Source of the DNA: Alphaproteobacteria bacterium
GTDB taxonomy: Bacteria; Pseudomonadota; Alphaproteobacteria; Bin95
DNA: 37,584 bases
Assembly: GCA_026710105.1 (NCBI GenBank)
Contig: JAPORR010000172.1
Span: 1 to 37,584, forward strand
Reading direction: 5' to 3'
Below, one piece after another: positions 8,351-26,174 of the stretch. The translations under genes and the position numbers were made by a program. Under the pieces are notes generated by a model. That model had not been told where the DNA came from and did no database searches. It saw only the letters and a program-made list of their open reading frames with translations. Within the stretch, counting starts at the first letter, position 1. Each line of letters begins with the position of its first letter.

Positions 8351-8839
8351 ATGATCATCTTTGACCGCAAGATACATAATTTATTACTTGTAGAGCTAAT
8401 CTCCGGTATGTGGTTAACTTTAAAATACATGTTTAAGCCTAAAGTAACGCTGAATTACCCATATGAAAAAGGGCCCCTTAGCCCTCGTTTCCGGGGTGAA
8501 CACGCGCTACGCCGTTATCCCAATGGTGAAGAACGTTGCATCGCATGCAAGCTCTGTGAGGCTATTTGCCCAGCCCAAGCTATCACTATTGAATCAGAAC
8601 CGCGCGAAGATGGCAGTCGCCGTACGACCCGATATGACATTGACATGACGAAATGCATATATTGCGGATTCTGTCAGGAAGCTTGCCCTGTCGATGCTAT
8701 TGTCGAAGGTCCGAATTTTGAATTCGCAACAGAGACACGAGAAGAACTTATGTACAGTAAAGAAAAACTTCTTGCAAATGGTGATCGTTGGGAGGCGTCG
8801 TTGGCTGATAATCTTGTTCTAGACGCACCTTACAGTTGA
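8351..8839 (+). CDS. nuoI: NADH-quinone oxidoreductase subunit I
   Basis: TYKY-type subunit, 162 aa, with two [4Fe-4S] clusters (N6a and N6b) linking NuoG to NuoB. The N-terminal amphipathic membrane-anchoring helix is followed by two ferredoxin motifs: Cys63, Cys66, Cys69, Cys73 ([12 protein letters not shown]) and Cys102, Cys105, Cys108, Cys112 ([12 protein letters not shown]). It is the only soluble-arm gene inside the AT-rich block. The iron-sulfur part (about 8461-8640) has near-normal GC, whereas the first ~100 bases are AT-rich. 22 bases separate it from nuoH. Confidence 0.98.
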
Positions 8840-22728: not shown

Positions 22729-23226
22729 ATGACCGTCGAGCCACGCGCCTTCCGTGATACGCTTGGGCGTGTGCCGACCGGCGTGACTGTAATTACAACC
22801 ACGGCGCAGGATGGAGAGATGCACGGTGTGACAATCGGATCCTTTAGTTCGCTGTCACTGGAGCCGCCGCTAGTATTGTTTTGCCTCGACAAGCATGCTA
22901 ATTGCCGCCAAGCGTTCCTTGATAGCACCCATTTCGCGGTCAATGTGCTGGCGGAAGACCAGTCAGCGCTCTCCTCGATTTTCGCGACCAAGAACGCTCC
23001 CCGTCCCTGGCACGACCTCGACTATTTCATCGGCGCGGCAAGTGGCGCGCCGCTGATGGCGGGAACCGTCGCCCGGATAGAATGCACGACCGAGGTGATC
23101 CATGACGGTGGTGACCATGATATTCTCATCGGACGCGCTAAGGCGCTTGAGACCGACGCGATTGGCCGGCCGTTAATTTTCTTTGCGGGGGGCTATCGCC
23201 AACTTGCCGCCGACGAGTCTCCATAA
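22729..23226 (+). CDS. Flavin reductase domain protein (FMN-binding)
   Basis: A 165-aa protein of the HpaC/RutF-like flavin reductase family, which reduces FMN or FAD with NAD(P)H, usually for a partner monooxygenase. It begins FRDTLGRVPTGVTVITTTA, continues with GVTIGSFSSLSLEPPLVLFCL and HFAVNVLAEDQ, and ends with the family-typical PLIFFAGGYRQL. A GGAGAGGG site precedes the ATG. No monooxygenase gene lies beside it, so the partner is unknown; it may act alone or on a distant oxygenase. Its last 34 bases overlap the convergent queG coding region. Confidence 0.88.
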   Translation: MTVEPRAFRDTLGRVPTGVTVITTTAQDGEMHGVTIGSFSSLSLEPPLVLFCLDKHANCRQAFLDSTHFAVNVLAEDQSALSSIFATKNAPRPWHDLDYFIGAASGAPLMAGTVARIECTTEVIHDGGDHDILIGRAKALETDAIGRPLIFFAGGYRQLAADESP

Positions 23227-24359
23227 GACCATTCCAGCCGGACAGATTCGTCGATCTCAGCTGGCAGCCGAGCGCGCCTGAACCCGTTGAATTCCGCGTC
23301 TGACAGGAGCTGACCTAACGCCCATACGGCTGCGCCGCGCACCAAGGGTGCCGCATCGTCGAGTGCATGTTTCACCGTCGGAATGAGCCCTGGATCGCCG
23401 CTATTGCCAACAGCGACGAGTACATTGCGCAGGAAGCGGTTGCGGCCTGTGCGCTTAATCGGCGAGCCTGAAAAAACCTGACGGAACCCGGCTTCATCAA
23501 GTTCGGCTAGATCGGCGAGTTTGGGCGCTGTCAACTCGATACGTGGCATGAGATCCGGCTCGCGCGCGCGGGCAGCGAATTTATTCCAAGGGCAAGCAGC
23601 CAGACAATCGTCGCAACCATAGATTCGGTTCCCCATGGCTCGGCGGAACTCATGCGGGATGGGCGCCTTGTGTTCGATAGTGAGATAGGAGATGCAACGC
23701 CGGGGCTCCAGTTGGTAGGGCGCGGTGAAGGCGTCGGTCGGGCAGGCGTCAAGGCAGGCGCGGCAGCTTCCGCAGCGGTCTTCGTGGGGAAGGTCGGGTG
23801 TAAGTGCCAATGTGGTAAAGATTTCACCCAGGAACAGCCAGGAGCCGTGGCGGCGTGAGACCAGATTGGTGTGCTTACCCTGCCAGCCGAGGCCGGCTGC
23901 CTCCGCTGTCGGCTTCTCCATGACGGGCGCAGTATCGACGAACACCTTAACCGCCCCGCCATGGGTCTCAACCAGCCAGCAGGCTAGTCGTTTCAGCCTA
24001 CGCTTGAGCACATCGTGATAGTCGCGGGCTGTGCGAGCATAGACTGAAACTGCGCCGCATTCCTGCTTCGAGAGCAATGCGAGCGGGTCTCCGGCGGGAC
24101 CATAGCTCATGGCCAGAACGATCACTGTCTGCGCTTCAGGCCAGAGCCCGTCGGGACTAGCCCGGCGGTCTTGATGCACGGCGAGCCAGCCCATATCGCC
24201 ATAGCGGCCTTCCGAGAGGAAGGTCTGCAAGTTCTGCCGGACCTCAAGACGCGCCACAGCTGGCGCAAAGCCGACAGCGTCAAAACCGAGTCTGAGCGCC
24301 TGGTCCCTGATTGCCGCCGGCCCGGTCGACGCTGGCGGCGCCGGGTCGGCAGTCGCCAT
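23193..24359 (-). CDS. queG: Epoxyqueuosine reductase
   Basis: Cobalamin-dependent iron-sulfur enzyme that reduces epoxyqueuosine to queuosine in the wobble position of tRNA; 388 aa. The general acid Asp is in FVDTAPVMEK (Asp142). Two [4Fe-4S] sets follow: Cys196, Cys199, Cys202, Cys206 in RCGSCRACLDACP, and Cys222, Cys249, Cys252, Cys256 with CDDCLAACPWNKFA. A HEAT-like region (LIPTVKHALDDAAPLVRGAA) closes the protein. The frame is open a further 66 codons upstream, but the ATG at 24359 overlaps the stop of the preceding gene by one base and gives normal length. Third gene of a minus-strand unit. Confidence 0.95.
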   Translation of the reverse strand: MATADPAPPASTGPAAIRDQALRLGFDAVGFAPAVARLEVRQNLQTFLSEGRYGDMGWLAVHQDRRASPDGLWPEAQTVIVLAMSYGPAGDPLALLSKQECGAVSVYARTARDYHDVLKRRLKRLACWLVETHGGAVKVFVDTAPVMEKPTAEAAGLGWQGKHTNLVSRRHGSWLFLGEIFTTLALTPDLPHEDRCGSCRACLDACPTDAFTAPYQLEPRRCISYLTIEHKAPIPHEFRRAMGNRIYGCDDCLAACPWNKFAARAREPDLMPRIELTAPKLADLAELDEAGFRQVFSGSPIKRTGRNRFLRNVLVAVGNSGDPGLIPTVKHALDDAAPLVRGAAVWALGQLLSDAEFNGFRRARLPAEIDESVRLEWSYGDSSAASWR

Positions 24360-24862
24360 CAGAACGGTGGGTTCTGTGCCGCAAGCATGCCGTAAAGCAT
24401 CGGGATCGACAGCATGGTGTTGGTACGCGAGAACAGCAGTGCGCGACGCGCAGCCTGAGGCTTGCGGTCTGCAGGTGCATCCACGATGCCGAGCGCGACC
24501 TTCTGGCTGGGCCAGATCACGAACCAGACATTGAAAGCCATGATGAGGCCAAGCCACATGCCGATGCCAATGAAGGCGCTCGTGCTGCTGCCGTCGGTAA
24601 GCCCGATGGCGAACCAGTCACCAAATGTGCCCTGCATGATCGCCAGCAACAGGCCCCAGAGCACCGTTGAGGCCGCTGACCAGCGGAACCAGAACAACAC
24701 TGCCGGAGCGATATGCTTGCCGATGGCAGGTTTCATTTCATCGGGGATCTTCGGCATCGTCGGAACCTGCACGAAATTCAGGTACCACAAAAGGCCGATC
24801 CACATCACGCCACTCAACACATGGAACCAACGAACGAGGTGGAGAAAGAACTCCGTTTCCAT
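24359..24862 (-). CDS. Urate_ox_N/PuuD-type integral membrane protein, stand-alone domain
   Basis: A 167-aa membrane protein with about four helices, resembling the membrane domain of PuuD urate dehydrogenases (Urate_ox_N, formerly DUF989). The start LVRWFHVLSGVMWIGLLWY is typical, with His8, His14 and His50 as possible haem or metal ligands and FNVWFVIWPSQK in the third helix. The cytochrome c domain of PuuD is absent, and no purine genes are nearby, so I do not infer urate oxidation. An AAAGGGAGGA ribosome-binding site stands nine bases before the ATG. It is sandwiched between a 31-codon membrane peptide gene and queG. Confidence 0.8.
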   Translation of the reverse strand: METEFFLHLVRWFHVLSGVMWIGLLWYLNFVQVPTMPKIPDEMKPAIGKHIAPAVLFWFRWSAASTVLWGLLLAIMQGTFGDWFAIGLTDGSSTSAFIGIGMWLGLIMAFNVWFVIWPSQKVALGIVDAPADRKPQAARRALLFSRTNTMLSIPMLYGMLAAQNPPF

Positions 24863-24887
24863 AATGTACCGTCCTCCCTTTCCGAGC

Positions 24888-24983
24888 CTAGCCGCCGATT
24901 ATCTGGGCGATAACAATCAGGATGACGGTCAACACGACGCCCATGCCGATTGTCATGTGGAGCGATTCCAAGGGATTCTTCAT
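24888..24983 (-). CDS. 31-residue single-helix membrane peptide
   Basis: A short frame on the minus strand encoding MKNPLESLH, then MTIGMGVVLTVILIVIAQ and IIGG before a TAG stop. It is one hydrophobic helix with a short charged N-terminus. Support for it being real: a GGGAGGAG ribosome-binding site eight bases before the ATG, a perfect TATAAT box 31 bases upstream of the ATG, and the PuuD-like gene beginning 25 bases after its stop. Size and topology resemble small accessory subunits such as CydX or CcoQ, but I see no sequence similarity and assign no function. It may associate with the PuuD-like protein. Confidence 0.7.
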   Translation of the reverse strand: MKNPLESLHMTIGMGVVLTVILIVIAQIIGG

Positions 24984-25013
24984 CGACGTCTCCTCCCGCC
25001 GGGGTCTGATACG

Positions 25014-25044
25014 ATTATAGCAGCAGGGCGGCGTTGAAAAGCAA
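25014..25044 (-). promoter_or_regulatory. Candidate promoter of the small peptide-PuuD-like-queG unit
   Basis: On the minus strand TATAAT (25019 down to 25014) is a perfect -10 box, with TTGCTT (25044 down to 25039) 19 bases upstream as a weaker -35. The expected start near 25007 gives a leader of about 24 bases carrying the GGGAGGAG site of the 31-codon gene. Confidence 0.6.
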
Positions 25045-25463: not shown

Positions 25464-26174
25464 ATGACCGAACTGAACAATGACGAGATCTATTGCAGAG
25501 ACCGAGTGCGCCGTTTCGACCCGGATCGGGCGACCGTCATCGCCTTCCAGCCAGCGGCAACCCGCCCGAGCCTCTATGCGCTGCATGCTTTCAACCTGGA
25601 AGTGGCGCATTTGCGGGAAACCGTGAGCGAGCCTGCTCTGGGGGCCATGCGGCTCCAATGGTGGCGGGACGCGCTTGATAACGCTGCCTCGGGGCGAGAA
25701 TATCACCACTCTGTGCTGCAGCCGCTGGCCGCAGCCATCCGCAAACATGATTTGCCGGCAGACGAATTCCGCCGCCTGCTTGATGCGCGAGAAATGGACC
25801 TCGACGCGCTGCCGCCAGCAGACTTGCTAGCCTATGCACGGGAGACAGGCGGTGTGCTGACCGCACTTGCTGGACGAGTCGTGAGCGGGCAGGCAGGCAA
25901 CGAAGATATCGGCACGGCCTGGGCACTCGTCGGCTGGCTGCGCGCCGCTGCCTTCTTCCGCCGACCATTGCCAGAAAGCGCCGGGCCGCGTGCCCTAGCA
26001 AGGGAAGCCGAAGCGTTGCTGGCACCGGGGACAGATAGTTATGGTCGTGCGCTCGCCGCGCTGGCACGCGCCTATATCCGAAAACTTGGCCAGCTAGGCT
26101 ACGATCTCGCCGATTCGCGTGCAGCTGCGCCGTTGCGACTCAGGGGCTGGCGCATTGCATTCGGGAGGGAATGA
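25464..26174 (+). CDS. Squalene/phytoene-synthase-fold protein, NDUFAF6-like
   Basis: A 236-aa protein of the squalene/phytoene synthase superfamily. It begins with YCRDRVRRFDPDRATVIAF, then LYALHAFNLEVAHLRETVSEP and MRLQWWRDAL, which matches the NDUFAF6 (C8orf38) branch, a complex I assembly factor in mitochondria. The Asp-rich DxxxD motifs that bind prenyl diphosphate in true synthases are missing: the first helix reads EVAHLRE. A catalytic role in terpenoid synthesis is therefore unlikely, and no carotenoid or hopanoid genes are near. A role in complex I assembly is an inference from family similarity and from the nuo operon 11 kb upstream. Confidence 0.82.
   Translation: MTELNNDEIYCRDRVRRFDPDRATVIAFQPAATRPSLYALHAFNLEVAHLRETVSEPALGAMRLQWWRDALDNAASGREYHHSVLQPLAAAIRKHDLPADEFRRLLDAREMDLDALPPADLLAYARETGGVLTALAGRVVSGQAGNEDIGTAWALVGWLRAAAFFRRPLPESAGPRALAREAEALLAPGTDSYGRALAALARAYIRKLGQLGYDLADSRAAAPLRLRGWRIAFGRE

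Follow-up and report, generated by a model that had tools for sequence, protein, structure and literature searches.

A 31-residue gene probably encoding the detached first transmembrane helix of a short DUF989/Urate_ox_N protein in Alphaproteobacteria

Related systems and the locus

In several membrane-enzyme operons, short hydrophobic peptides are encoded that act as single-helix stabilisers, as observed with CydX, KdpF, and CcoQ. As far as we are aware, none of these three was derived from its partner by splitting. In the ba3-type (B-family) cytochrome c oxidase, subunit IIa is a single helix of 34-41 aa whose gene lies directly upstream and is often unannotated (PMC3128077). IIa replaces a helix that elsewhere is part of subunit II, an arrangement explained by gene fission or fusion, and it is reported to run in the opposite direction to the helix replaced and to lack sequence similarity with it (PMC3128077).

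In the literature searched, DUF989 is mentioned only in PMC4562309 and PMC3597751. In the portion of the former available to us, short DUF989 proteins are described as having four helices, corresponding to helices I, II, V, and VI of PuuD, without cytochrome c, and no function is assigned to them (Doniselli et al., 2015; PMC4562309). The window, the whole 37,584-nucleotide stretch of DNA analysed here, carries a gene of this kind preceded by a very short open reading frame (ORF). The features of the locus are as follows.

23193..24359, minus strand: queG, tRNA epoxyqueuosine reductase (TIGR00276 equivalog, 434 bits)
24359..24862, minus strand: 167-aa four-helix protein of the short DUF989/Urate_ox_N family, without a cytochrome c domain (Pfam PF06181, AlphaFold2, 53-row alignment)
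24872..24878, minus strand: second Shine-Dalgarno (SD) sequence, GGGAGGA, for the 167-aa protein (sequence read)
24888..24983, minus strand: gene of a 31-aa single-helix peptide, the probable detached first transmembrane helix (ORF translation, conservation, selection)
24990..24997, minus strand: SD sequence GGGAGGAG for the 31-aa peptide (separated by 6 nt from the ATG at 24983)
25014..25019, minus strand: -10 box TATAAT (sequence read)
25039..25044, minus strand: -35-like hexamer TTGCTT (consensus match only; 19 nt before the -10 box)
25464..26174, plus strand: divergent squalene/phytoene-synthase-like gene, NDUFAF6-like (Pfam SQS_PSY)

Read from 24983 to 24888 on the minus strand, the ORF translates as MKNPLESLHMTIGMGVVLTVILIVIAQIIGG and then reaches a stop codon, which lies 25 nt before the ATG (24862) of the 167-aa protein, with the second SD inside this gap. 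The original prediction of a 31-residue ORF 25 nt ahead of a Urate_ox_N-type gene is borne out by the sequence, as are the TATAAT box and the ribosome-binding site that it named, the latter a strong one. The SD, TATAAT, and TTGCTT are kept in all six aligned genomes of the same genus while the surrounding sequence varies. From the position of the -10 box, a leader of about 24 nt is predicted. Standard gene finders skip genes of 31 residues, and the micropeptide is without description in Pfam, NCBIfam, or the literature searched: neither database gave a match to the peptide, and comparison of 36 split relatives with Pfam gave weak scattered matches only (best E 0.015).

Split and fused forms of the helix

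Relatives of the locus were collected by searches of 40 related genomes, with the 167-aa protein as query, and of 84,980 species genomes, 385 genomes of the class, and 398 of the phylum; the upstream regions of the resulting loci were inspected, and split and fused forms were counted on non-redundant cores. The peptide motif M-x3-L-x2-L-x2-T-x3-G forms the N-terminus of the protein itself in 126 short-family members, as in L009, which begins MANILTSLQNTVIAGVVLTIIMVAVVGG..FFFRWLHVLSGVMWIG, and a separate upstream helix ORF is present in a further 55 loci. The gene is therefore found again upstream of orthologous genes, and the lack of conservation that would speak against it was not seen. No short-family member without the helix was found among the 181 that could be judged, one more being cut off by a contig end. 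Because sampling was partly by similarity and partly designed to include short open frames, the split:fused ratio, which is 18:62 among the 80 named loci, does not estimate that of the population; the absence of helix-less members is independent of the choice of sample.

Within the genus of the window, seven genomes carry the gene, and each of them encodes the peptide in an ORF of its own. Other lineages of the class are also split, with peptides of the types MKNPLESL.., MGNPLDSL.., MAKILESL.., and MDVVLTDL.., and all inspected members from outside the class are fused. Some split peptides (L052, L154, and L157, and also L036, L038, L041, L054, L058, and L188) continue after the helix into a C-terminal tail that is either Ala/Thr/Glu-rich, with total lengths of up to 90 aa, or short and charged; most split forms lack such a tail.

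Because the same motif is fused in 126 relatives, the ORF very probably represents the N-terminal transmembrane helix, detached as a gene of its own, of a short DUF989/Urate_ox_N protein with five helices. Judged by its sequence, the micropeptide gene is real, protein-coding, and conserved, and most relatives have the homologous helix covalently joined to this protein; the products of the two genes would almost certainly assemble into one complex. An independent accessory or regulatory micropeptide of the CydX, KdpF, or CcoQ kind, which stabilises an enzyme from which it does not derive, would share the size, the single helix, the place in a membrane-protein operon, and the position ahead of the large-subunit gene, and one fused relative matches the KdpF model very weakly (E 0.0015). 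However, such an origin is improbable given that the homologous helix lies within the protein, at one fixed place, in 126 relatives; we know of no comparable general fusion of known add-on peptides to their partners. The peptide further differs from those subunits in its probable origin by splitting from the partner and in matching no Pfam or NCBIfam family. The distinction is partly one of wording, as the peptide, once split, would act like such a subunit. Of the undescribed two-component complex originally proposed, the association with the Urate_ox_N-type protein is thus supported by natural fusions, and what changes is that the peptide is more probably a split-off part than an independent accessory subunit.

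The peptide is also specific to these loci. When the window's own genome is searched with a profile built from the split peptides, a single match results, at the window locus (E 3.2e-16). In 60 relatives, every match of the profile with E<1e-3 falls at a short-DUF989 locus or, for the two in genome G029, in a PQQ-type cluster that contains a paralogue. No helix ORF was found upstream of full-length PuuD at any of the 11 loci checked.

Selection was assessed on disjoint pairs pooled over all split lineages, since within-genus pairs alone were too noisy (dN/dS 0.22-0.73). Over 24 such pairs of split peptides, the true frame gives a pooled dN/dS of 0.218, compared with 0.73 and 2.3 in the shifted frames, and the differences at codon positions 3, 1, and 2 number 280, 163, and 73. 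The split peptide is, on these codon patterns, under purifying selection; neutrality, the outcome that would have weighed against a functional product, was not found, and the hydrophobic helix read from the ORF at the outset is a constrained one.

This constraint also bears on whether the ORF is a translated leader peptide, kept for translational coupling or attenuation with a functionless product. A short ORF just ahead of the main gene, with a 25-nt gap, fits such a role, but it is the amino-acid sequence and not the frame alone that is conserved, and the same sequence exists in fused form. In addition, the gaps vary (median 21 nt over 56 split loci; 24 and 25 nt within the genus), the core ORF has its own SD, and no Rfam element was found at the peptide leader. 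An SD-like site precedes the peptide ORF in 52 of the 56 split loci and the core ORF in 49. A leader peptide is therefore very unlikely, and a detached helix remains the preferred reading.

The partner protein and its gene neighbourhood

The 167-aa protein matches Pfam Urate_ox_N (PF06181) with E 1.5e-13 and 51.3 bits (gathering cut-off 26.9), mainly at profile positions 168-238 and mainly through its C-terminal half, and all 72 fused relatives match the same family. With this partial match, four helices, and no cytochrome c, it is one of the short DUF989 proteins of Doniselli et al. (2015), differing in the extra N-terminal helix, fused or split, which goes unmentioned in the available portion of that paper. 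With PuuD (COG3748) it has in common the Pfam domain and, in the core, the helix bearing RW-x-H-V. However, PuuD has eight helices and a C-terminal CxxCH cytochrome c (PMC4562309) and, at the loci checked, no N-terminal or upstream helix of this type. Ten of the 11 full-length PuuD loci carry CxxCH; in the eleventh, the reading frame is truncated where its stretch ends. In the 167-aa protein, the eight-helix domain, the C-terminal CxxCH, and a purine-catabolism context are all absent; its sequence contains no cysteine, and hence no CxxCH.

Related short proteins are automatically annotated as urate hydroxylase PuuD, and the shared Pfam domain could likewise suggest that the 1+4 protein is a urate oxidase. 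This is highly improbable: the cytochrome c domain is missing, the neighbours are secDF, yajC, SQS_PSY, and Mth938-like genes and not purine genes, and a completely different gene context of the short variant is described in the portion of Doniselli et al. (2015) available to us (PMC4562309). The genome of the window also has a full-length PuuD-type gene besides this one (G000:C27), so that the window locus is very unlikely to be its genome's urate oxidase.

The start codon of queG overlaps the stop codon that ends the 167-aa gene (TGATG, 24359), so that the unit of a PuuD-like gene with queG originally proposed holds for this locus; the linkage with translational overlap is confined to loci of the same genus and does not extend to the family. 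In another member of the genus (G003), no match was found for the peptide, the partner, or queG, and loss cannot be distinguished from a missing contig. Outside the genus, the short-DUF989 gene adjoins secDF, yajC, SQS_PSY, and Mth938-like genes. Among the 80 named loci, the neighbours include secDF (51), yajC (33), TrmFO (19), and Mth938-like genes (14), names that were read from the sequences, only SQS_PSY being confirmed by Pfam. The squalene/phytoene-synthase-like gene has a tblastn match in 102 loci and is a neighbour in 27 of the 81 neighbourhoods, a count that takes in the window. In mitochondria, the relatives of the Mth938-like and SQS_PSY genes are the complex I assembly factors NDUFAF3 and NDUFAF6, so that gene neighbourhood may hint at respiration. 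As a separate matter, replacement of the protoporphyrinogen oxidase HemJ was considered as a role for the family and rejected, as HemJ is present in the window's genome and in many genomes with short-family genes.

Assembly, evolution, and possible chemistry

AlphaFold2 predicts the natural fusion L009, modelled with 72 natural fusions, as one five-helix unit (pLDDT 95.1, pTM 0.86) with helices at residues 8-30 (the peptide part, pLDDT about 92), 37-72, 75-110, 127-157, and 165-198. The 167-aa chain of the window alone is predicted as four long helices (pLDDT 93.6). Split and fused helices have similar conservation profiles (Spearman 0.76, P 1.5e-6). Along the small helix, conserved positions recur with the periodicity of one buried face, at modest significance (P 0.03 and 0.04). 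From the relative's natural fusion, the peptide and its partner are predicted to pack in one unit.

In the lineage of the window, it is proposed that both ORFs are translated from one mRNA, each from its own ribosome-binding site. The 31-aa helix would then insert into the membrane N-in/C-out and the 167-aa protein N-out/C-out, orientations that are assigned because of the charged loops and the PuuD topology given in the available portion of its description (PMC4562309). The small helix would pack on its partner through the conserved face (L5, L8, T11, G15, and L18/T19), rebuilding the five-helix unit, and the peptide would thereby serve as a required structural subunit, as IIa does to II in the ba3 oxidases. 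The likeness to IIa/II lies in a gene directly upstream and in a helix that is fused to the partner in relatives (126 fused, 55 split). However, the protein family is another one, and the split and fused helices here share an evident motif and conservation profile. In our reading, the present pair may work like IIa/II without being a member of the IIa family.

In a tree of 160 cores (51 split, 109 fused), parsimony requires a minimum of 9 state changes, compared with 43.6 when labels are shuffled; well-supported branches force at least two split/fused changes, the deep branches being weak. The most distant relatives (L213-L216) are fused, which suggests that splitting may be the derived state. 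Fused relatives and the +1 offset of the window might recall programmed frameshifting, or a five-helix gene disrupted through a frameshift error or recent mutation, but this is refuted because the peptide-core offsets take all three frames (23/22/11 across the 56 split loci), with separate SDs and start codons over the 55 non-redundant loci, two offsets among the seven split genomes of the genus, and selection on the peptide, leaving it a negligible chance.

Haem binding, suggested by the candidate ligand histidines of the original prediction, would be speculative. H14 is the only invariant His of the 167-aa protein family (53-row alignment), invariant Met residues are also present, and no CxxCH or informative fold match was obtained. 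Because only a single His is invariant, bis-His haem within one chain is unlikely; His/Met ligation, or no haem, is possible. The best hit of a Foldseek search with the fold had E 0.91, and VIA-align returned generic four-helix bundles that were uninformative, designed proteins coming first (Z 13.4, rmsd 2.8, 142 aligned), with equally generic matches to cytochrome b6 (Z 11.7, rmsd 3.2, 136 aligned) and superoxide oxidase 5oc0 (Z 9.9, rmsd 3.5, 143 aligned). A sequence search of the PDB with the family or peptide profile found nothing meaningful. The best hit of the peptide was uteroglobin (E 0.69), and with so short a query a sequence relation to IIa itself may go unseen. Tentatively, the rebuilt protein could be a redox enzyme of the membrane, passing electrons into or across it in the manner supposed for the membrane domain of PuuD, conceivably with separate partners in place of a fused cytochrome c.

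Distant short-DUF989 paralogues occur with pqqA, pqqD, pqqE, and a serC-annotated aminotransferase gene on plasmids of Acidibrevibacterium and Methylovirgula, and G029 has a similar paralogue cluster in which no pqqA was seen. These PQQ-type clusters are located as follows.

L217:1316-4561 (Acidibrevibacterium): PQQ-type cluster with a short-DUF989 paralogue
L218:1400-4585 (Methylovirgula): PQQ-type cluster with a short-DUF989 paralogue
L219:3746-9005 (G029): PQQ-type cluster with a short-DUF989 paralogue

The three hold pqqD, pqqE, a class V aminotransferase gene annotated serC, and DHO_dh-like or M48 peptidase genes, with pqqA in two of them; pqqB and pqqC were found in none of the stretches read. 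A separate helix ORF precedes the paralogue in Acidibrevibacterium and G029, and none was found in Methylovirgula. In L219, the helix peptide is encoded twice (G029:C90:10115-10189 and 8479-8562, minus strand), with one copy directly following the pqqE-like gene and the other preceding the DUF989 paralogue. An acyl-CoA dehydrogenase gene separates the two copies, an arrangement that resembles a duplication flanking a gene insertion. The PQQ-type clusters may be the strongest hint of redox chemistry in the family. A more speculative proposal, which we hold as rather doubtful, is that short DUF989 proteins are undescribed five-helix membrane redox enzymes, repeatedly split 1+4, whose paralogues may carry out a membrane-bound oxidation step of a PQQ-like cofactor.

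The locus would thus be a case of a first helix shifting between part of a protein and a micropeptide gene, several times within one bacterial class, and would offer a natural experiment on the assembly of split membrane proteins. The picture of the short DUF989 family would be corrected from four helices to five, and studies of the 167-aa protein purified alone from a split lineage would probably leave out an essential component. Such genes would be overlooked, wherever they occur, by gene finders that disregard very short ORFs.
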